Source of the DNA: Marchantia polymorpha subsp. ruderalis
Taxonomy: Eukaryota > Streptophyta > Marchantiopsida > Marchantiales > Marchantiaceae
Reading direction: 5' to 3'
Assembly (NCBI GenBank): GCA_037833965.1
Contig: AP031355.1
Coordinates: 11,371,501 to 11,435,500 of the forward strand
DNA: 64,000 nt
The notes under the pieces were generated by a model. That model made no database searches and had not been told where the DNA came from. It saw nothing but the letters and a program-made list of their open reading frames with translations. Numbering within the stretch: the first letter of the stretch is position 1; every line of letters starts with the position of its first letter. Shown here one piece after another: positions 8,055-53,700 of the stretch. The position numbers and the translations under genes were made by a program.

Positions 8055-9233
8055 TTATAAAAGCTTCTCGGCGATCTGTACTGCATTCAGAGCTGCCCCT
8101 TTGCGTATTTGGTCTCCACAGACAAAAATGTCGAGTCCGAAGTTGCCCTTCTGAGAAATATCCTTCCTGATTCTTCCGACAGCCACGTCGTCCTTGCTGG
8201 ATACCTCGAGAGGAGTGGGAAAATTATTGCCCGAACGATCATCGACCACGACGACACCTTCTGCTTTGGAAAGAATCTCCCTGGCGGTATTCTCATCCAG
8301 TTCTCTCTCGAACTGCAGATTGATGGATTCGGCGTGGGCCCTCATCACAGGCACTCGGATGCAGGTCGCTGTCACCAAAACCTCCGGGTCGTTCCAAATC
8401 TTCCGGGTTTCTTTGACAAGTTTCATCTCTTCCTCGTTATATCCATTTCCCGTCACCGCCGAGTTGTGAGAGAAGAGGTTGAAGGCGTACTGGCGATTGA
8501 AAATGTTGCACGTCGGCTCTTGTCCATCCAGGACCTCGCGGGTTTGTTGCTCGAGCTCGGCCATGGCAGCGGCACCAGCTCCGCTAGCCGCTTGATACGT
8601 ACTGACGACCATTCTCTTGACCTTCGCGTGGCGATGAAGAGGAGTAGCGGCCATCAGGCAGATAATGGTAGAACAATTCGGGTTCGCAATTATAGCTCCT
8701 TTCTTGTTACTGAGCTTTATGTGAGCCATTGCATCGGCATTGACCTCCGGAACAATGAGCGGCACTCCGTCGACCATTCGGAATGCAGAGCTGTTGTCGA
8801 CCACGATGGATCCCATTTCTGCTGCCAGAGGTCCATACTCCTTACTGATGGAACCCCCGGCACTGAAGAGGGAAATGTCTATCCCCTCGAAACTTTCTTT
8901 GGTGAGCTCCTCAATCTCGTAATCGCGACCCTCGAACGAAATGTGCTTGCCGGCTGATCTCTTGCTCGCCAGAAGCTTCAACTTGCTGTAAGGGAAGTTG
9001 CGTTCCGAGAGCACGGCCAGAAACTCCTGTCCCACTGCACCGGTCACACCCACCACGGCGACGGAAGGGCCACTCTCGGTCAATCCCATGCGCACCGCGC
9101 GCGGCCTGCTCGCAATCCTCGACGCAGAAATTCCTTGAATCTTACGCCCGCTGAGCTTCGATCCATACACAGAGCTTCTCAGAGTGACTCCGCTGCCAGC
9201 CAGAGCGCCCATCTGCACCGAAAGAGCTGCCAT
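8055..9233 (-). CDS. ASD: Aspartate-semialdehyde dehydrogenase, plastid-targeted
   Basis: The enzyme reduces beta-aspartyl phosphate to aspartate semialdehyde with NADPH, the branch point to Lys, Thr, Met and Ile, in the plastid stroma. The 392-residue product has a basic, Ser/Arg-rich N-terminus of about 50 residues that fits a transit peptide. Then come the Rossmann nucleotide motif GVTGAVGQ (62-69), the catalytic-cysteine motif NPNCST (Cys187) and the C-terminal CGDQIRKGAALN signature. I chose the Met at 9233 because the frame stays open for another 135 codons upstream (to 9638) but that part is a low-complexity Arg/Ser-rich run with no family match. The gene has no intron. Family membership is secure; plastid location is inferred from the N-terminus and from plant biology. 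Confidence 0.95.
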   Translation of the reverse strand: MAALSVQMGALAGSGVTLRSSVYGSKLSGRKIQGISASRIASRPRAVRMGLTESGPSVAVVGVTGAVGQEFLAVLSERNFPYSKLKLLASKRSAGKHISFEGRDYEIEELTKESFEGIDISLFSAGGSISKEYGPLAAEMGSIVVDNSSAFRMVDGVPLIVPEVNADAMAHIKLSNKKGAIIANPNCSTIICLMAATPLHRHAKVKRMVVSTYQAASGAGAAAMAELEQQTREVLDGQEPTCNIFNRQYAFNLFSHNSAVTGNGYNEEEMKLVKETRKIWNDPEVLVTATCIRVPVMRAHAESINLQFERELDENTAREILSKAEGVVVVDDRSGNNFPTPLEVSSKDDVAVGRIRKDISQKGNFGLDIFVCGDQIRKGAALNAVQIAEKLL

Positions 9234-9950
9234 TCTTGCGCCCCGACACGAATCGCTCGATGCTTTCGCCTGCTGCTCGGCCAAATCGATTTCCCTCCTC
9301 TCTCTCGCCAAGGGAAGGGATTCAGGGCTCCGATCGCTGGCGACCCTGCGGATCGAAGTTCGGGACGATGCCCTAGGAATCAACTTGCCACTCGATCTCA
9401 CACTCGCAATCGTCGCCTCCCGCCGGAGATCCTGTCTCGGTAACTGCGACCGGGAAGTCCGAACGCGCAACGCTGCGACGCTTTCTTTCCCAGTCACAAT
9501 AACTCGTCCCGCGAGAGCGCTCTTTGCACCGAGGAGGTCGGTCTCGTCGCGACGTGGGGTCTCGAGCGCCGAACCATCTGTCGGGGCCGACCTGATCTGT
9601 CCGAGACTCCGTCGCTTTGCCTTGTGATGTAAGCCCAAGCCCCTGAGTCTTCGCGCGGGATTTCCCGAACGTCATCCATTTGCACAGAAGGCTCTCCCTC
9701 CCTCGAAGGATGTCAGGAATCGGGATGGGGCTCCAATAATACGATCCATATTACCAGAACTACTGGGCCGAGACACCATCTTTGCTTGAGCTGGACGTCT
9801 AGGACAAACCATTGTGACATTTGAAGTACGAAATCGAGGCATTAAAAAAATGATGTGCAGTACAATTGGCAATAGGAGGAGCTGCAAAAACTTGATGCCA
9901 AGACTAAATAAAGTCTTGGCTTCAAGACTGCAAAATTATGACTTTTTTCC
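9234..9950 (-). promoter_or_regulatory. ASD 5' leader and promoter region
   Basis: A GC- and CpG-rich stretch upstream of the ASD start. The ASD frame remains open to 9638, giving an Arg/Ser/Asp-rich leader that is most simply read as 5' UTR kept open by high GC. An N-terminally extended protein cannot be excluded. Composition falls to AT-rich near 9890, which probably marks the upstream edge of the gene. No clear TATA box stood out. Confidence 0.4.
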
Positions 9951-13967: not shown

Positions 13968-14870
13968 TCATGGCTTTATAATGTACAGAGGTGATTCGAT
14001 CGAGACGGGCTTGCCATCTTCAGCTACGATTTCCAAGATGGTTCCCGACTGATCCGCCTCGATCTCATTCATAAGCTTCATAGCTTCGACAATGCAAATA
14101 ACCTGGCCCTTGGTGATTTTGTCGCCCACCTGGACGAACGCTGGCTCACCAGGTGCAGGACTTCTATAGAAGGTTCCGGCCATGGGCGACAGCATAGGGG
14201 GATACAGCGAGGCCGGAGCCACTTGTGGAGTTTCAGAAGCGGATTCGGGAGCAGGAGTTGCATCGGCCCAGGCAGGGCCTTGAGGTGCAGCAGGTGGGGC
14301 AAGGTACTCTGGGTAAGAAGTGTGCGCCATGACATGCGGCCCAGGAATCGATGATGGAGGAGGTGGCGGTGGTGGCAGCGCCTCCTTCTTCCTTATGACG
14401 AGTTCGTAATCCTTGTGCTTCATTTCTAGCTCGATAATGTCTCTCGAATCCACCAACCTCACCAAATTGGTTACATCGGCCATGAAAGAAGAAATCGAAG
14501 GATGGGTTTTGTTTAAAATCTTGGCCTCTGCTGATCTTTCCTCCTCGTCCGCGATGGAATCAGCATCCAGGCCGCCAGCGGAAGTGACGACGCCGTGGAC
14601 ATTGTTCAACCCAATCTGATTCACCGGGGAAGCACAATTAATTACTCGAAAGCCCTCAAGTTTCTTGGCCCTTCGAGACCGCCCGACGGAGCAAATGGGG
14701 GCCGACAGAGCGTTTGTGGAACGCAGGCTCAAGGTGGTGGCAAGTCGCGACAGCACGAGCCGCATTCCAGGTCTCCCAGAAGTAGATGAAAGAATCGCTC
14801 CAATCTTCCTGGCTTCTGCTGCGCCTGCCCCTGCCCCTACCAGACCCGCTGCTGCCTGTGCGTACGCCAT
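13968..14870 (-). CDS. BCCP: Biotin carboxyl carrier protein of plastid acetyl-CoA carboxylase
   Basis: This is the subunit of the plastid heteromeric acetyl-CoA carboxylase that carries the biotin group between the biotin carboxylase and carboxyltransferase sites, supplying malonyl-CoA for fatty-acid synthesis. The 300-residue product has an Ala/Arg/Ser-rich N-terminus suited to plastid import and a conserved middle segment around residues 127-162 with DIIELEMKHKDYELVIRKKE. A flexible Pro/Ala linker with a run of seven prolines comes next, then a C-terminal biotinyl domain from about 223 with SPMAGTFYRSPAPGEPAFV. The biotin site is VEAMKLMNEIEAD, with the modified Lys at 265. The gene is a single open frame with no intron. 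The start is the first Met of the frame and suits the expected length. Confidence 0.95.
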   Translation of the reverse strand: MAYAQAAAGLVGAGAGAAEARKIGAILSSTSGRPGMRLVLSRLATTLSLRSTNALSAPICSVGRSRRAKKLEGFRVINCASPVNQIGLNNVHGVVTSAGGLDADSIADEEERSAEAKILNKTHPSISSFMADVTNLVRLVDSRDIIELEMKHKDYELVIRKKEALPPPPPPPSSIPGPHVMAHTSYPEYLAPPAAPQGPAWADATPAPESASETPQVAPASLYPPMLSPMAGTFYRSPAPGEPAFVQVGDKITKGQVICIVEAMKLMNEIEADQSGTILEIVAEDGKPVSIESPLYIIKP

Positions 14871-16000
14871 CTTTACTTCCAGTTGCTCCCGTTCCTCTCC
14901 GCGATCCTGCTCACTCTTCCTTGTTTCTTAAACTTCAAGATTCAGCCTTCTGACCGACTTCCTCTCCGCCTGCATTCCTCCTGTCGCCGTGATCCTGCCA
15001 TTTCTTCCGTTTCTTGATGGCATGTGCAGTTGGCATGCGCCGGAGACGACGGGAGGAAATTGCCTCTCGTTTCTTTACTTTTCTCTCGACATTTCTCAAG
15101 TGCGGATCACAAACGCTGTCTCGTAATTATCGGCTCGAGCTCGAGCGCTTCTCTGATTCCTGTCAGAAGCATCTACCAAGAACAATCACAAATCATCCGC
15201 ATTTGCAGAGCGCCCTTTTTTCCACCGAAGCCTCGCTTGGCAAAGTTATGGAAGGAGACCAGTGCCCTTTGAAGGCTATCCGGTGTTCCAGTAGAATCCT
15301 CAAGAAATCTCTCCCCAATAATCCGATAAGAAAAATGCAACGAAAATCCAGTCGTGCTCGTCATCATGGGCATGCAATCGCCACGACCTTTTTGTCTACC
15401 CCGTACAGGAGCTCACACGTAGCTTTTGCTACTGTATTGAGGAGCTCCACTGCTGCCCAACATGTGCCCTGCCAAAGTCGCTTGCAACGCTGTGAAGTCA
15501 CAAGAGGGTGTCATGTACAACGTCGAATCACAGATCCAGATATTTAAGATTCGGCTTTCTTCCACAGCTTTCAGCAAGTGCATTTATGAAGTTACATCAC
15601 AGGCCTCTTCCAGTTCTCTCAGTGGCTCTGGGCTGGGATCTGGTCAGATCACGAAGACATTGCCTTTTCTCCGTAGGTTCCTTGTTGGCTATTACGTTTC
15701 GTTGTTCTCTGCAAATGTATTTTTATTGCTCATATCTGTGAGCTTCTCCTCGAGATTCTTAATGCTTCCGAACAGTCGACAATTGCAGGCAGGTACGTTA
15801 GATTTCGGAGATCAAACATTCAAACATTTCTTTCAGTAGAAGACATAAATGGCGGTTTTTGCAATATTTCTGATATCACACGTGAATTCTTCTAAAGCAT
15901 TCAACAAAACTTAGATGGACGAGGAACATAGACCTGCTTTATACCATTGGGAATAAATATATGCGCATTTTCTCTTCCAAGAAGAGAGATAGAACACTAA
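14871..16000. other. BCCP 5' flank, no further gene resolved
   Basis: 14871-15010 is CT-rich and probably holds the BCCP leader. The rest has gene-like composition and overlapping plus-strand open frames (15014-15547 and 15462-15839), but their products are basic, low-complexity and match nothing I know. A divergent transcript is possible but unsupported. Confidence 0.35.
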
Positions 16001-17844
16001 CTCTCTTCCTGTAGATGGTTCTGTAACGTTGAAGTAACTAGAAGTTTAAACATATATAATATCAACATAATATAACAATTTTACACTTCACAAAATACGG
16101 ATTATCTCATCTAGAATTTAATGTCTAACTCATGTAATCTTCTTTTAATTTTGAAAATTTTTCTTAGTATCTTTATTTTTTATTTCAAAAATTATCCCGT
16201 TATTCTAATTTTATCTGTTTATCATCTTTTTATCCGTGAAAATATTTTCCTGAAGTTTATGATCATGTGCCCCATGGCACTTAATCATGATACTCCATAT
16301 ACAATAATTGGATAACTGATTATTATTTTATTTCTTCACAAATACAACCTAATAAATAGGAGGTTGACATGCTTCCACCATTGAGCTATGCATACATAGT
16401 TACTTTGTGCTCCACCTAATGAAGAAAGTAGATGTTTCATGCTCAACGAAAAATTTCAAGTCTAAGTCTGGAGACGTATCTTGACTGATACTCGTCATAT
16501 CAGGTTATTCTCATATGAAAGTAAGGTGAAGTGAATTCCAGACTGAATACTTTGCTTCAAAAAGTTGAAAATCCTCCTTACAACAACATAAAGCTATAAT
16601 CATTATTGCCATCTATAGTTTCATTTACCTTCTCAACAATTACCTCAAATAAGTCAATTCCATAAATCATATGTGATGTCATCTCAATTTTTATTTTTGT
16701 GTTGATCGAACGGAATCCAAGGACCAATAACCTGAAGAAGCACTTTATAGAAGAGTGTTGGTTCTATGTCGTCGATTTTGTCATTATCATAATATCTTCC
16801 ATTATCTGCATAAGAAAAGTTCCATAATATAGTTACTAAATTAGATTGTTGAAGCTTTGCTTCTCTTCTCTGCTTGCCTGGTGATCATCGGCAGGAGCAA
16901 ATTAACATCTAAACAAGAAGACTTTTTCTTCTTCGAACATGTTACGTTTCTTCCTTCCTTTCTCAGTAACTACATCGATGGAGACAAACGAAGGGGCTTG
17001 CAAAGAGTGTGCTAATGGTAATTGTTATGGGTATTGAAACTGAAGTCACAAACATCGAAAAATAGACGAGATGTGAGACCTTGACTTCAAACTGACGTCT
17101 ATGGCTGGTACTTTGTACTTGACGAATCCAGTTTTCCAACTTTATGAAAGGATCACATTCCACCAATGATTGACAAGTTGGAGTCAAATGAAGATGCAGG
17201 AGTCATAAAGCCAACTGCATTTTCTCCGGTGGCTTTTTTGATTTTGGATGAAGGGTGTAAGCAAACTTCTCAAAGTTTCTTATTATCTGCTGCTACTTGA
17301 TAGCAAGTGTTACTTTCAAATTTCATTGGTGCAACTCTTGATCTAATGGCTCACAAGTCCATGCCTATAAAAGAGTCTAAAGTTGTACTGTTTTCAAATT
17401 ATTATGTGTAATGAGATATCTTATTCTTTACTAAATAATCACTGCAAAAAAATATGTAAGGTACTACTAATACCTTAGATATCAAATGAGCTTTGTAAAT
17501 GACATAGCATTGGCATGAAAAATAATAATTTGGTTCTTTAAATATCAAATGTGTATGAAAATTGATAGTAACAAACAAAATAAACATGAAGCTATCAATC
17601 AGATCATATATATGTTTTAAGAATTTTCTTTTATGAAATAATAAAAATAAAATGATTTAAAAATTACATTAAATTGAAGATTCTTCTATGGATGATTAAA
17701 CTATATGATGGTATGATTGTGCATTCTGCATATCATCAAGGCTATTTTAGGATTCTTGATAGTGCCACATTTGTTACATTCCAGAGTTTTTTTTGTTCAT
17801 TTTCTACATAAGTGTACCATTTTTCATGGGCAATAATAATTTTT
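16001..17844. other. AT-rich intergenic DNA
   Basis: Mostly AT-rich with no dominant open frame. A short segment near 16850-17230 is less AT-rich and may be a retroelement remnant, but I could not assign a domain. No gene called. Confidence 0.4.
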
Positions 17845-17931
17845 CCGGGTTTGAAGAAGCTCCGAAGAAAGTCAGGTTAGAGAGCCGTGTGATGGGCGAC
17901 TATCCCGTACGGTTCGGAGAGCACTTAAACA
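17845..17931 (+). mobile_element. Organelle-type group II intron fragment with intact domain V
   Basis: 17882-17915 is exactly 34 nt and folds as group II intron domain V. There is a 9-bp lower helix starting GAGCCGT and closing ACGGTTC, a 2-nt CC bulge at 17905-17906, a 5-bp upper helix, and a GCGA (GNRA) tetraloop at 17896-17899. The catalytic triad AGC is at 17883-17885. The flanks (GAAGTCAGGTT-like upstream, GGAGAGCACTTAA downstream) resemble plant mitochondrial introns as I remember them. No intron ORF or exons remain. The likeliest origin is mitochondrial DNA copied into the nucleus (NUMT). Confidence 0.85.
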
Positions 17932-18865
17932 TTGTAAAATTGAATAAATTGGATATGTTTGACGGAGCCATATGTATTATGATTAAAGTTAGATTTATAC
18001 CTAAGATGATGAAGCACTTGATATAATTGAGAATGTTAGATACAACGGAATAAATAAACATATAGATATATATATATATATATGATGTAGAATCATTTTT
18101 TGAAAAAATTTATTATTCATTTTTTATATATGATTATTTAAGGTTTACATGGTACTATTTTCTCACAAAAAATTTCAAGTCTTTGCAACGTTTAATAGTT
18201 GAAGTGCACGAGTGAAGATTTAGAGTGAGAATAAAGTGAAAAAGTTCAAAATGGAGAGGTAAAAATTCTAATAATGACGGAAAATATCGTTTCAATTAGC
18301 TTGGAAGGTATTGTAAAGACGAGTAGAGTACTCGTCATTTCACAACTATTTACACTTCAAAGCAAAATGACTTTGCTGATCTACTCAATAGGACGGTGTT
18401 GAAAAATTGTAGAGTATGTTGAGTCAACCTCGTATACTATACAAATTTGGACTTAAACCATCAATACTATGGTTTATTTGATAAATATTTATATTTCAAC
18501 TACAATTGATTTCTTATCATAGTGTATGCTAAGTCACACACGGATGGCTAATTAGAATGAATTAAGAGTCTTTAGATGTGATTCATATTTTTTCACTTGG
18601 AAAAAAAATAGTTCCATGTTGAAGCTATTAAATGAAATTTTCTTGGATATGCTACCATTGGAAAGCTTATAGATTATAAAATCCCGTAACTTGTGAGATA
18701 ATTGTTGGTAGAATTTTATTTTCAATGAACCAAAAGTAATAAAAAAAAGGGAAAAAATGTTTACACTTCTGCTACTAACATGGACAAATTTTTCTTCCCG
18801 ATACTATTGAATGAGAAAGATTAGTTATTATATATTTAATAGCATGTCACAAGTAGAAAATCCTA
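17932..18865. other. AT-rich DNA between intron fragment and copia remnant
   Basis: AT-rich with a (TA)n microsatellite near 18066-18083. No gene or domain seen. It may include decayed 5' parts of the copia element that follows. Confidence 0.45.
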
Positions 18866-20530
18866 TGAGGAGCAACTCAAGAAGCAAGCAATCGTTGTTG
18901 AACTCTTGATTATAGCCCTAGAAGATCAAGATCAAGCTGAAACAACTTCTATAAGATTTTCAAGTAGATTTAGGAGAGCTTTTGAAAGATATGAAATATG
19001 GGTCAAATTTTCTTTGCTTGAAGATAATGATATTGTTACATAGCAAAAAAATGATGATGGTTTGATGTTAGAAGAAGTCTCAACTTCTTTGTATAATGAA
19101 ACTTGAGCTTGTGAAGCCAAGTTTGAATGAAATGTTGACATTAACAAAGATGCAATTACTTGAGTACAATGAGACAATTGAACTGGTGTAACATCTTGAA
19201 AATCAATCTATTGTGAATTGCAAATGGGTGTAAAAGTTGAAAGATGATTCAAAAGAGGAGTATAAAAAACTTCATAAAGAAAGTCTAGTAGCCATAAGAT
19301 ACACACGAGAAAATGATTTGGATTACAATGGGGTGTTTTTTCAATAGCTAAACAATCTACAATTCGGCTGATTTATGCAATGATGACGTGTTTTAGATCA
19401 AATGGATGTTGTTATAGCCTTTCAGCATAAGACATTGGTGGAGATAATCTAAATGAGACAATTTCAAGTATTTTCTTAAAATAGCAAAGAGATATGGATG
19501 TGTAGACTACTTAAATCTTTGTACAAATTGAAGCAATCTCTCAACAATGAAATAAGTGTTTTGATGAATGTATAGAAGCACTTGGATTTGCACGGAGCAT
19601 CTATAATCAATGTGTTTATATGAAACTTGTTAGCAATTCCACTTTTGATTATCTCATCCTAATGTTTAATGATGATATGTTTATTCTTGCTAAAAAATAA
19701 TTCAATATCGATAAGTTCAAAGCTCAATTGGATGATGAGTTTCGGATGAAAAATCTAGTCAAAACGAAGAAGATTATTGGCATGGATATCAAGGAAAATA
19801 TCAATCAAGCTTTGATTAAATTAAATCAAGTACATTGAGCAAGTGCTTGCAATATTCAACATGACACATGTAAAGCCGTGAATGTCTCATTGTCAACTCA
19901 TACCAAGCTTTTTAATGTTCAATGTACTATTTCAGATGACTATAAAGATGTCATGTACAAAATTCTTTATGATAAGGGAGTATTAAGATTTATCTACTTG
20001 ATGATTTGTATTAGACCAGAGCTATAATCAAAGTAAATATATACATGTGCAATCCAAATAAGATACGTTGGGAGGCCGTTATTTGAATTCTTAGATACCT
20101 AAAAAATTCAAATTATGTGGAATTATTATGTGATGATAATTTAGAAAAATCCAAATTCTTGATAGACTTTGTAGATGCTTATCATGGACAAAATTAAAAC
20201 AAGAAAAGTCTACAAAAGAATATGTCTTCACACTCGAGGTGAATGCATTTGTTTGATATCTACTTTGCAAAGATGCATTTTTTTTAGTCAACAACAAAAG
20301 CGAATTATATGACAGCAGTGTAATCTACAAAGGATGCAATTTAATTGAACAAGCTTATTACAAAATATGGGATCAAAAACATATATGGTTAGTCTTCATT
20401 GTTATAGTTGAATTGTCATTCATCTTATCACTAATCAAATTATGGATCGTAGAGTTAATCACGTCGAATACAATTTTCTTTGGGAAGCAATGTTAGAGAA
20501 GATGATTGACCTAGTCAAATTGCTAGAGTT
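18866..20530 (+). pseudogene. Decayed Ty1/copia polymerase (reverse transcriptase and RNase H)
   Basis: Pieces of copia Pol appear in the correct order but in shifting frames. They are a linker ending FERYEIW near 18950-18985, the RT start KSLVAIRYTREN then LDYNGVFF near 19285-19340, DQMDVV near 19400, and LLKSLYKLKQS near 19510. These are followed by a segment ending FNDDMFILAKK near 19660-19700, KLDDEF-type FKAQLDDEFRMKNL near 19720, and RNase H-like sequence to about 20520. Several frameshifts and stops make it non-functional, and the active-site YVDD reads FNDD. LTRs were not found with confidence; the 3' one may lie just past 20490. Confidence 0.8.
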
Positions 20531-27452: not shown

Positions 27453-30061
27453 TTAGGTGCTGGACAGGCTGTCACTATTGTCATTCGGATCAATACTCCT
27501 CATCACTTCCGATGCTTCCTGGGAAGTTAATTTCAGGTCCTGTGATTGAAATCAAAGACAATAAGGATTTGGTTCACACCATGCATCCAGCAACCATAGC
27601 AATACTGTGTGGATAAAGATTTCAGTTCCCTATGTAGAAAGAATGATTTTCCTGTCAAAAATCTACTTTACAAGAACTTAAGATAAGAAACTTACTTGAA
27701 CAAACACATCAAAATCATAACGAACACAGAAGTAGAATATACCGGGAAAATAGCTGGAGGCGTACTCAAAAGATATTCATCAAAAGTATAAAAGTAGTCG
27801 GTATGCGGATTGAAGTGGTAAGGTGTGTCGAGAAGACCGTCAACACCACCACCACCCTCGATATCAAGATTAGCATCCCAATCCCAAGAAATCGGCAGGA
27901 GCTCTTCGTCGCACTCTAAATCAGTCAAGCCGATCACATTCCCCTCTGTATCCATGACGGGATATGGTTGCTCATGATAATCATCTCGTGGAGGATATTC
28001 AACCGCCGCCATGGCATTTTCATTTTGACACGACTTTCCAGAAGTGGAAACTTCTTCATACAAGTCAGGCGAACCATTCTCAGAAAAAAGTTCTTCAAAA
28101 GGAACAGACTGCACCAATCCACCACTTTGAAGACTTCCAGTCTTCACACAAGGAGTCAAGCTCTGCATCATCCAAGTGCAACCACTTGAAAGACTTAGTT
28201 TTAGGGCATTTCTTCTTCTCGACATCAACTTAATGCTGGTGTTAGAAAGAAATATTTTCTTCGTAAGGCGTTCAGATAAACCATGAGACAAGACGTTAGT
28301 CTACGACCGCTGTCACATGCATCCTTCTTACACTCCATTATAATTATCGTGGGAGCCGCTAAAACACTAACTTCCACTCCCAGCGTTTTCAAACTCTGTA
28401 GCTATGACAAAGAACTTGTGATGATCACCTGCGGAAGCCTGTGAGATATTCCGAGGGTGGATGTCAGCTCGGAAGTTAAGTGGTCTGATTTTCCCATAAC
28501 AGTCTGCAATCGAACAGATCAGATAGGGCCTAAGCATTAGAATGCACAAAAGAAGCATATGCCGTCAACGGCAAGTCGATATCGTCGGGAGGAAATAAAA
28601 GACTGGTCTACATTCACTGACTAATATCTACAAGTCAACACTACCAGAGAGCTTGCTTCGCGTTGTTCAGAAGAGGAGCAGTGTGAAAAACAAAGACGAT
28701 GCAGGGATGCATAATTCCATGGGAAGGAAAAACAAACTCTTACCATTTCAGAGCCTCTCCCAGACTGCGTTGGTGTCCTAGTGGTTACCGACTCTGGAGG
28801 TGCTTGCACTGGAGGAGACGCTTCCCTTGTTCTATGTCGAGAGAACTGGGGTCTGACGGGTGCATCTCTTTTCGGGGTAATAAGAGTACCCCTTGACACA
28901 TCACTAACACTTGCCCCAACGACGATTTCTCGATTAGATCTAGGCTGGGGTTGACATGTTTCGGCCTTAGAACTATTACCTTCGGCAAATACACCGTCAT
29001 ATTGCTTTCCTCCCGTACACTGCCGAGGTTGCTTTTGGAAAAAAACTTTACATACAACCAATTCTCCATCTCTCTCCTCTTCCTCAGGTCCTAAATGGTA
29101 TTGATGCAATATCCAGTTGGTTTTTTCCGACTTTGCTTTCTTTTTCCCTGAATATAGGTTCCTGTAAAGTACCATTATCTTCTTCCAACCCAAATGTTGA
29201 CCACCATCAAGAACTGGCCTCGTTTTCCCAGTTTTGTGCCAACGTGTTTCCACTCCTGATTCTTCATCCTCGTTATGGATCTTACGACGCTTCCTCGTAC
29301 CAGTTGTGTAGGCCTTGGCTGGTTTATGGAAGAAATGACGGCTGCTTCCGTCTGTCTTCACACCTGCAGACGCACTGATCATATGAGAAGACTTGGATAG
29401 TATTGGATGGAGACCTTATATGAAAAAGACCAAGCTCTTTATGCAGTGAAGGAAATGGACACTCACCAGGAAGGTTCTCAGGATGAGTCTGACAAATCCC
29501 ATCATTGCCGTCAAGGTGAGAGATAAAGTCATCGATTCTAGGATGTGAAACCTCCTTCCCGACTCCCACCTTAGCAGCAAGATGTCGCAGTAGTTCCTCG
29601 TCGCTTGGGTCAAAACGAACCCCAGCTGGAAGGCCAACCCAATCCATAGCCTGCAATTCTACCATCTGACTGGGTTCAGAAGTAATTATCCTACCCCTCA
29701 TTCCTATTCTCATCCTCATGCCATACCTTTAATACATACGAACACTTAACTTATGATTAAAGATTACTGCAGGCTTCATTTTCAGTACAGATAAGCTTCG
29801 TACGTAGTCCAAAGGTACAAAGGGATGGGAGAAAAGGTATACCGTCCTCCTGCCAACATGATGGCCACAAGATGGACAATCTTCTCTTACTTCCAGGCCA
29901 GGGAGTGCAGTTGTGTCATCCTGAGCCAGACTGTAGGCATCATTACGCTGGTGAGTAGCATTATCAATTTGACGAACCAGCTGATCCATGAATCGACCCC
30001 ACCTGTCTGAAAACCGATGAAGTGGTCGTGAGAGTCTGCCAGAAATCGGTCTGTGTCTCAA
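27453..30061 (-). CDS. SOG1: SOG1-like NAC transcription factor (DNA-damage response)
   Basis: SOG1 is the plant regulator of the DNA-damage response, phosphorylated by ATM/ATR at SQ sites. Exons from splice signals: 30061-29843, 29650-29467, 29363-28744, 28503-28429, about 28228 or 28217 to 27743, and 27539-27453. Exon 1 ends with CPSCGHHVG, matching the Cys-rich box before the NAC domain in SOG1. Exons 2-3 give the NAC core [70 protein letters not shown] and [11 protein letters not shown]. The C-terminus is acidic ([16 protein letters not shown]) and the last exon has an SQ motif in LTSQEASE. The start is uncertain: the first in-frame Met is used, with another at 29989. The fifth exon shows a frame conflict described in the findings. 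Confidence 0.88.
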
Positions 30062-50049: not shown

Positions 50050-50777
50050 ACCAAAAGCGGCAGTGCAGATGTGGCCCGACAGATTAGACCATCCGACAAC
50101 TCGAGCAAACCAAGGTTTCAAGAAGAGCCCACAAGAGAAAACGGGGCCAAATGGACACTTAAAGAGGAGGAATTGGAGGAGGAATTGGAGGAAGTGTTGG
50201 AGGGAGCGATTCCCCAGGAGTAGTAGCGTAGGTGGGACCGTCCACGTCCACGTCCCACGGACTCTTTCGTGTTTGCGGTCCCGGCCCGTCGGACCTTCGT
50301 GCTTCCATGCCGGGCAGCGCAACGAGGGAGGGAGGGAGGCGTCGACCCCTCGGCTCGGCTCGGCCCGCTGCTCTTGTGCTCAGTCAGTCCGCTCTCCTTG
50401 AGAAGGCCGAGCTCGCCCTCTGATCTGCTCGGCAGAGCGTCAGTCAGATCGATCGATCCATCTCCGTCTGCGTCTGCGTCTGCGCGCGCGCTCTCGATCC
50501 AGATCCGCAGTCCCGGCCGGCTCGCAAGGCCTTCGATTCGATGCGCAGGTCGAGCTATTTGAGGGTAGTTTTGGAGTGCCCCGCAATTTGGTGTAGGTTT
50601 GGTTGTGGAAATTGGTGACAGGAGTGGTGTCAGATTGGGCGAGCGCGAGATCTATGGCCGCGCACTGTTGATCGAGGAGGAGGAGCGCCATTGAGGAGCT
50701 GCGGGCGTTGTGCGTCGGAGGCGGAGGAAATATTGCCAGGATAGGGAAGTGCGAGGCGGTGGTGGACAGCAGCGGCG
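50050..50777 (+). promoter_or_regulatory. GC-rich promoter and 5' UTR of coatomer beta
   Basis: Composition jumps to GC- and CpG-rich directly before the COPB start. It contains AGGAGGAATTGG repeats (50165-50200), GAGGGAGGGAGG (50326-50340) and GCGTCTGCGTCTGC simple repeats (about 50468-50485). Such a block is typical of a highly expressed housekeeping promoter and leader. Exact start of transcription cannot be read. Confidence 0.5.
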
Positions 50778-53700
50778 ATGGAGAAGACTTGTACTCTACT
50801 CGTTCACTTTGACAAGGGCACGCCCGCCCTTGCCAATGAAATCAAGGAGTGGCTGGAAGGCAGCGACACCAGCAAAAAGGTCGAGGCCATGAAGAAGGCG
50901 GTGATGCTGCTTCTGAACGGCGAGACTCTACCGCAGCTTTTTATCACCATTGTGCGGTACGTGCTCCCGTCGACGGATCACACGATCCAGAAGTTGCTGT
51001 TGCTGTACCTGGAGATTATCGATAAAACGGATGCTCACGGGAAGATATTGCCCGAGATGATTCTGATCTGCCAAAATCTGAGGAACAACTTGCAGCACCC
51101 GAATGAGTACATCCGAGGTGTGACACTCCGTTTTCTTTCTAGATTGAATGAGGCTGAGTTGATTGAACCCTTGATTCCCTCAATTCTAGCTAATTTGGAA
51201 CATCGCCACGCATTCGTGCGAAGGAATGCTATCCTGGCAATGATGGCTATTTACAAGCTGCCCCAGGGAGAGCATTTGCTGTGTGATGCTCCTGAGATGA
51301 TTGAGAAGACTCTTTCCACCGAGCAAGATCTTTCCTCCCGGAGAAACGCGTTCTTGATGCTTTATACTTGTGCCCAAGATAGAGCTGTCAGCTATCTGTT
51401 GAGCCATCTGGAAAGCGTTTCCGGATGGGGAGACATTTTGCAAATGGTGGTTCTGGAGCTCGTCAGGAAAGTGTGCCGGACGAATCCTGGAGAGAAGGGA
51501 AAGTACATCAAGATCATTATCTCCCTTCTCAACTCCCCTTCGACCGCGGTCATGTATGAGTGTGCCGGCACTTTAGTTTCTCTTTCGTCGGCACCTACCG
51601 CCATCCGAGCTGCAGCCAACACCTACTGTCAGCTTTTGTTATCTCAAAGCGACAACAATGTCAAATTGATAGTGTTAGATCGCCTGCAGGAGCTCAAGGC
51701 TTCACACCGGGAGGTGATGGTAGAAATGATTATGGATGTATTGAGGGCTCTTTCCAGCCCAAACCTTGACATTAGGAGAAAAACCTTGGACATTGCTCTA
51801 GATCTGATCACTCCACGAAACATTGACGAGGTCGTTATGACTCTGAAGAAGGAAGTTGTGAAAACCCAAAGCAAGGAGTTGGAGAAGAATGGGGAGTACA
51901 GACAAATGCTCGTGCAGGCAATCCATTCATGTGCTCTGAAGTTTCCGGAAGTGGCCAGCACTGTTGTGCATTTGCTGATGGATTTCCTTGGAGACAGCAA
52001 CACTGCCTCTGCTGTAGATGTTGTCTTCTTCGTGAGAGAGATTATTGAGACCAATCCGAAGCTCCGCGAGTCGATTATCACCAGACTGCTGGACACCTTC
52101 TACCAGATCCGGTCCTCAAGGGTGTGCACTTGTGCTTTGTGGATAATTGGAGAGTACTGCTTATCCTTACCCGAAGTCGAGAGTGGTATTTTCACAATCA
52201 AGCAGTCACTCGGGGAGCTTCCATTTTTCACCGTTGCCGATGAAGGAACAGAAGGTGAGGGTGGCAAGGCGGGCAATCAAAGTACGAAGGGATCTGGTGT
52301 CGTACCTCCAGCTTCTTCAGCTTCATCTAAGCGGCCGGCCGTTCTTGCTGATGGCACATATGCTAGTCAGAGTGCTGCTGCTGAGATTGCAGTTTCAACA
52401 CCTCTGTCCGGAGGAGGATCAGGGGCTTCTGCAAATTTGAGAGCGATTTTGTTGACAGGAGATTTCTTCCTGGGAGCAGTCATTTCCACAACCTTGACGA
52501 AGCTCGCGCTGCGTCTTGAGGAAGTCTCCTCTCAGGCTGTCAAAGTGAACAAAGTAACTGCGGAGATCCTGCTCATCTTGGTGTCCATGCTCAGACTAGG
52601 AGAGTCACGCACTGTCCCTCCTATTGACGACGATTCTTATGACAGGATTTCTCTGTGTGTGAAAATTCTTTCAAGCCCTGATGATGTCATGAGAATGGTG
52701 TGGTTGAAGTACTGCCGTGAGAGCTTTGTGAAAATGATTACGGAGAAACAGCACCGTGAGACAGAGGAATCCAAGGCCAAAGCGCAGGTTTCCAATGCCC
52801 AGCCCGATGATCTTATCGACTTCCATCATTTGAAGAGCAGAAAGGTTAGTTTTCAACTGAACGTTGAGGTGTTTTAGGTCCTTCCTCTTCCTAAGTATAT
52901 CATAACGTCAAAAACTACTGCACTGTTAAACCTAGTTGATCAGTATTTGGTTACAATTGGATGCGAGATTCTTCCCGCTTAACATATGTTTCTTTACTTA
53001 TCTTATAATAGTTATGTTTTCCAAATTATCTGTACAGATATTCCTAAGCCGATTCATGTGTAACTAAGCGTGACCCTGATGCATACAGGGAATGAGCCAG
53101 CTCGAGTTGGAGGACGAAGTCCAAACTGACCTCAAGCGAGCCACAGGAGAGTTCACAAAAGATAGCGACAACACGAGGAAACTAAATAGAGTCCTGCAGC
53201 TAACAGGATTTAGTGATCCTGTATACGCTGAGGCCTACGTGACTGTTCATCAGTATGATATAGTTCTCGATGTTACTGTCGTGAATCGCACCAACGAGAC
53301 TCTACAAAATCTTTGCTTTGAGCTTGCCACAATGGGAGATTTGAAGCTCGTTGAGCGCCCTCAAAACTACACTCTGGCCCCAGAGACCAGCAAGCAGATC
53401 CGAGCAAATATCAAGGTGTCTTCCACAGAAACTGGAGTTATCTTTGGCAACATTGTGTACGAGACAACTAGTGTGCTGGATCGCAATGTGGTTGTCCTGA
53501 ACGACATCCACATCGACATTATGGACTACATCTCTCCAGCTTCATGTCCAGAAGTGGCCTTCAGAAATATGTGGGCTGAGTTCGAGTGGGAGAACAAGGT
53601 ACGCTGTTCGCTTATATCTTTCTATTCTTGGTCGACTTGTACTTTTGCCACTTTTTATGCTTGTTTTGTATAGCGTTAGCTGCTACATTTGTAGGAGTAA

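Follow-up and report, generated by a model that had tools for sequence, protein, structure and literature searches.

A short, probably mitochondrial group II intron fragment with an intact domain V in a nuclear repeat of Marchantia polymorpha

The hairpin at 17882-17915 is a true group II intron domain V (D5) of ordinary origin. We read it, with a probability of about 0.92, as part of a simple short NUMT, one of many in this genome, in which a nuclear repeat contains ~84 bp derived from the 3′ portion of a mitochondrial group II intron of a plant, probably a liverwort. This reading draws on the fold of the hairpin, the boundaries of the insert against its sister copies, an empty site, many sister fragments, and a related D5 next to mitochondrial exons, all observed directly. 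The window, the whole 64,000-nt stretch analysed, is located at C6:11371501-11435500 of a 31.4-Mb contig, a nuclear chromosome with nuclear-type genes. Finding a flawless domain V on a nuclear chromosome does not by itself point to a nuclear group II intron or to selection, as RF00029 matches at least 48 places here.

Fold and model match of domain V

The 34 nt on the plus strand contain the AGC triad, a GCGA (GNRA) tetraloop, and a 5-bp distal helix. The minimum-energy fold gives the proximal helix 8 bp (8 + 5 pairs), and counting the U-G pair beside the bulge yields the textbook 9 + 5 arrangement with the 2-nt bulge CC. Parts of a published account give this architecture for domain V: a length of 34 nt, two helices of 9 and 5 bp, a bulge of two nucleotides, and in most cases a GNRA tetraloop (PMC10012718). 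The fold energy is -14.9 kcal/mol compared to a shuffle mean of -8.1 (z -3.12), and none of 200 shuffles folded as low. With RF00029, which models D5 and D6, the segment scores 38.9 bits (E 5.3e-6 for 801 nt scanned; E 3.8e-4 in a whole-genome search), just under the gathering score of 40. As the Rfam default scan of the whole window applies this gathering threshold, it returned no match; a tRNA scan with bacterial settings likewise found none. The D6 half of the model falls on flanking sequence with long insertions, and the score remains under 40 because domain VI is absent.

Fold and covariance model thus agree with the original prediction, which had placed a domain V at exactly these positions (34 nt, AGC, GNRA, 9 + 5 bp, 2-nt bulge), the ninth pair being the U-G. 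It had also taken a covariance-model score below threshold as a sign of chance or of a different origin; 38.9 is formally below 40, and the missing domain VI accounts for the shortfall.

Table 1. Features of the insert and its host repeat (window positions)
Feature	Position	Strand	Description and evidence
Whole organellar insert	17843..17926	+	~84 bp; own-genome matches, copy alignments, empty-site paralogues
Intron sequence 5′ of domain V	17843..17881	+	39 nt, identical in L005, L008, L009, and L010
Group II intron domain V	17882..17915	+	34 nt, AGC triad, GCGA loop, CC bulge; fold, RF00029 38.9 bits, genome-wide list
Sequence after domain V (GGAGAGCACTT)	17916..17926	+	homology to other copies stops here; domain VI absent
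Left part of host nuclear repeat	17675..17842	.	partial paralogues on C6, C7, and C8; 69-81% identity
Right part of host nuclear repeat	17955..18400	.	66-80% identity to dispersed paralogues

Extent of the insert and its host repeat

Homology to other copies in the same genome starts at 17843 and stops at about 17926, which delimits an organellar piece of ~84 bp (Table 1). Its ends are uncertain by a few bases, with a shared T run on the left and possible filler on the right. Domain VI with its branch-point A is missing, homology ending 11 nt past D5, and so are domains I-IV, the intron 5′ end, and the flanking exons, the sequence 5′ of 17843 being host repeat. None of the 18 genome matches to the intron maturase (PF01348) lies inside the window, in line with the absence of an intron ORF noted previously. 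Because domain VI, the upstream catalytic domains, the exons, and a maturase are all missing, the fragment is predicted to be unable to splice or move.

The surroundings had been described as organellar-looking, a description that applies to 17843-17926 only; the flanks are part of an AT-rich repeat dispersed in the nuclear genome, with 66-81% identity to its paralogues. Three C6 paralogues match the left and right repeat parts in order and without the insert. L073, L074, and L075 read through the homologous site without it and represent empty sites, L076 lacks the insert too, its alignment taking in the left flank and the start of the right one, and L077, the fifth stretch compared, gave no useful alignment. 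No target-site duplication is visible at the window copy; the ~69% identity of the empty copies to the window locus leaves room for a small one. Sister copy L002 likewise has empty-site relatives (L041, L042, and L043).

The original prediction also placed the hairpin among decayed retroelements. The dispersed repeat is there, and its retroelement nature stays at the level of plausibility because the sole domain match sits under the curated cut-off: one of eight frames around the insert and leftward of it matched below E 0.01 (RVT_2 at 19701-19838, E 0.0017). Nor is the window purely repeat DNA, since four of the six long window frames tried match protein domains. These are ordinary nuclear genes with adaptin N-terminal (50745-52877), NAM (28621-29415), biotin/lipoyl (13968-14927), and semialdehyde dehydrogenase (8055-9671) matches.

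Sister fragments across the genome

Comparing 17780-18040 with its own 241-Mb genome gave 18 other matches, 15 of which overlap the insert and three of which lie in the right flank; among the 15, L012 and L015 are one duplicated segment and L013 is the D5 of another intron. L005, L002, and L003 extend the same intron, each with different nuclear flanks. In these three and in L012/L015, the organellar sequence, either the same or from its neighbourhood, spans some 200-560 bp, and L005 is possibly a mosaic. In copies running past the intron 3′ end, compared to name the host gene, the shared sequence goes on and no gene was assigned. Exact linker or D5 patterns had no matches in viral contigs and genome contigs.

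L012 (C9:1312400-1316500) and L015 (C9:1252200-1256300) form an inverted duplicate of ~4 kb, with the copies ~60 kb apart and 93% identical, and contain several short stretches resembling other mitochondrial fragments. L003 and L080 seem to represent a second variant of the window's intron, in which part of domain V is deleted and which leads into shared downstream sequence; it may be a degenerate copy of the intron residing in the mitochondrial genome.

A 561-bp query around the D5 of intron copy L005 found at least 40 matches, itself included (the best 40 of 58 candidates), compared to 33, itself included, for a 561-bp control stretch of the cox2/nad4L insert L013 (31 of 31 candidates scored). 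Longer queries gave at least 40 for the D5 intron (best 40 of 59 candidates) and at least 42 for the control (best 40 of 68). Judged by first-look candidates (58 vs. 31), the D5 stretch may be up to ~1.9 times as frequent, a point against the plain NUMT reading. Short mitochondrial pieces are thus scattered widely, the D5 region exceeding the control by a factor of about two at most, and the control stretch is scattered on a similar scale. Genome-wide, RF00029 matches at E ≤0.1 number at least 48 (57 of 18,856 candidates scored), 31 of them over the gathering score. Ranked by E-value, the window piece comes 35th among those listed, and three of the listed places sit in L013.

A mitochondrial donor

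L013 (C3:6149200-6153300) is a mitochondrial insert with three RF00029 matches at 55-60 bits. It includes exons of nad4L (PF00420, E 2.1e-17) and cox2 (PF02790, E 2.2e-15), and in an alignment across its middle domain V, 39 of 42 nt agree with the window piece; by our reading, this D5 would belong to an intron near the nad4L 3′ end. Two intron junctions bound a cox2 exon of 153 nt, a length that we take to be the spacing of the cox2 introns i97 and i250. cox2i250 is present in liverworts and in Closterium, according to parts of PMC10012718. Adjoining L013, a long open frame at L060:2860-6333 on the minus strand matches a reverse transcriptase (RVT_1, E 2e-14) and reads like a group II maturase piece joined to nuclear sequence.

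A second connection comes from L012/L015, where a fragment of the window's intron occurs together with a 118-bp piece resembling the mitochondrial insert of L013. Such nuclear copies are our grounds for inferring a mitochondrial donor over a plastid one, and likewise the intron's identity. With this qualification as to the donor, the NUMT origin proposed in the original prediction is supported by the short intron piece, the lack of a maturase in the window, the empty-site paralogues, and the many sister fragments.

Divergence and age

Across 11 typed rows, the majority sequence and the window piece disagree at one of 84 positions, in the D5 bulge, and the 50 nt outside D5 show no change. In the same rows, L002 differs from the majority at 8 and L004 at 10 of 84 positions. 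D5 is disrupted in L002, L003, and L080 and altered in L004 and L006. By its sequence, the window copy appears to be comparatively young for a NUMT, and a single difference in 84 nt fits the recent transfer suggested at the outset. Since the piece differs at just this one position, its intact fold needs no special retention. The companion suggestion, that the fragment is kept for some reason, finds no footing, the 50 nt outside the hairpin being as unchanged as the hairpin; with the lone change inside D5 and none outside, the hairpin is not conserved beyond its neighbours.

In L007 (C2:15838679-15841741), the whole D5 fold is kept with a double change of a paired C-G to U-A. This could be read as constraint; it may also be chance, both changes being of the C-to-T type, or L007 may derive from a paralogous mitochondrial intron. 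C-to-T changes are common in nuclear organelle DNA.

Mode of insertion

The donor stretch would have begun upstream of domain V in the mitochondrial intron and stopped just short of domain VI, and these ~84 bp were most likely captured into the nuclear repeat as filler DNA during end-joining of a double-strand break. We favour end-joining because no target-site duplication is visible, the junctions of L002 share short stretches, neighbouring multi-fragment insertions occur, and published accounts describe such events: simple and complex numts with end-joining hallmarks appear in parts of PMC6215612, and junctions with micro-identities of 1-7 bp in parts of PMC7037861. At the L002 insertion, comparison with L042 shows an 8-nt overlap of the two matched parts, and comparison with L041 a gap of 4 nt between them.

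Seven of the 14 non-duplicate copies carrying the pre-D5 stretch (L008, L009, L010, L011, L012, L014, and L017) break within ~10 nt of the 5′ base of the D5 hairpin. Such clustering is not obviously predicted by random breakage and counts against a plain NUMT; it was spotted after the fact, and the minimum match length of the search favours such ends. A genuine gathering of fragment breakpoints at the D5 5′ base seems very unlikely to us. If true, mitochondrial nucleic acid would physically fragment at the hairpin, or a template jump would occur there, on capture by the nucleus, and the ends of NUMTs would record this.

Alternative explanations

Whether the hairpin is a domain V at all, and whether its donor was a mitochondrion, can be weighed on the model matches and the company the sequence keeps. 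A chance resemblance of a 34-nt hairpin to domain V gains some room from the shortness of the segment and from an Rfam score slightly under the gathering score, but the local and genome-wide E-values, together with the homology of the entire 84 bp to other fragments, reduce its probability to a practically negligible level. We regard a plastid-derived piece (NUPT) as very unlikely. Group II introns occur in plastids too, and RF04357, the model of plastid ndhA/ndhB D5, gives a weak alignment; its 23.1 bits are, however, far from the gathering score of 53, and both the nad4L and cox2 exons that accompany the related D5 in L013 and the pairing seen in L012/L015 argue for mitochondria.

A nuclear mobile element that descends from a group II intron and spreads D5 copies by reverse transcription would be consistent with the number of places matching the 561 bp around L005 and with L002 stopping within a few bases of the apparent intron 3′ end. 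Against this, copy ends vary on both sides, copies cover different parts of the query, L003, L078, L079, and L080 share sequence past the presumed intron end, and the control mitochondrial stretch is similarly scattered. No clean target-site duplication was found at the two insertion sites examined, a point weakened by the 8-nt overlap in one comparison. Overall, we consider such an element highly unlikely. That D5 is retained in the nucleus because it has a role there, such as that of a structured RNA, is extremely improbable: the intact fold, the agreement with the majority of copies at 83 of 84 nt, and the paired double change in L007 would suit it, but the only change of the window piece falls inside D5, leaving no excess conservation of the hairpin, and D5 is broken in three sister copies. 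The short mitochondrial NUMT remains our preferred reading.

Significance and comparison with known systems

On its own, the 84-bp fragment is of little significance; it is ordinary and looks non-functional. The scatter of short mitochondrial pieces could serve studies of organelle-to-nucleus DNA transfer in early land plants. The surveyed part of the literature on liverwort and Marchantia NUMTs, on group II introns and numts, and on mosaic insertions contained nothing on this intron, and literature searches with stretches of the window sequence found none.

As with known NUMTs, short organellar fragments lie dispersed through the nuclear genome of a plant, empty sites exist, and multi-fragment insertions occur nearby. 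Nothing essential sets the locus apart from them; the window piece happens to include a complete catalytic hairpin. With plant mitochondrial group II introns it shares the domain V architecture, and with their degenerate 'fossil' copies inside plant mitochondrial genomes, described in parts of PMC10012718, its degenerate state. Unlike those fossil introns, the window copy is nuclear, and it retains neither exons nor domain VI nor anything upstream of the 39-nt pre-D5 stretch.
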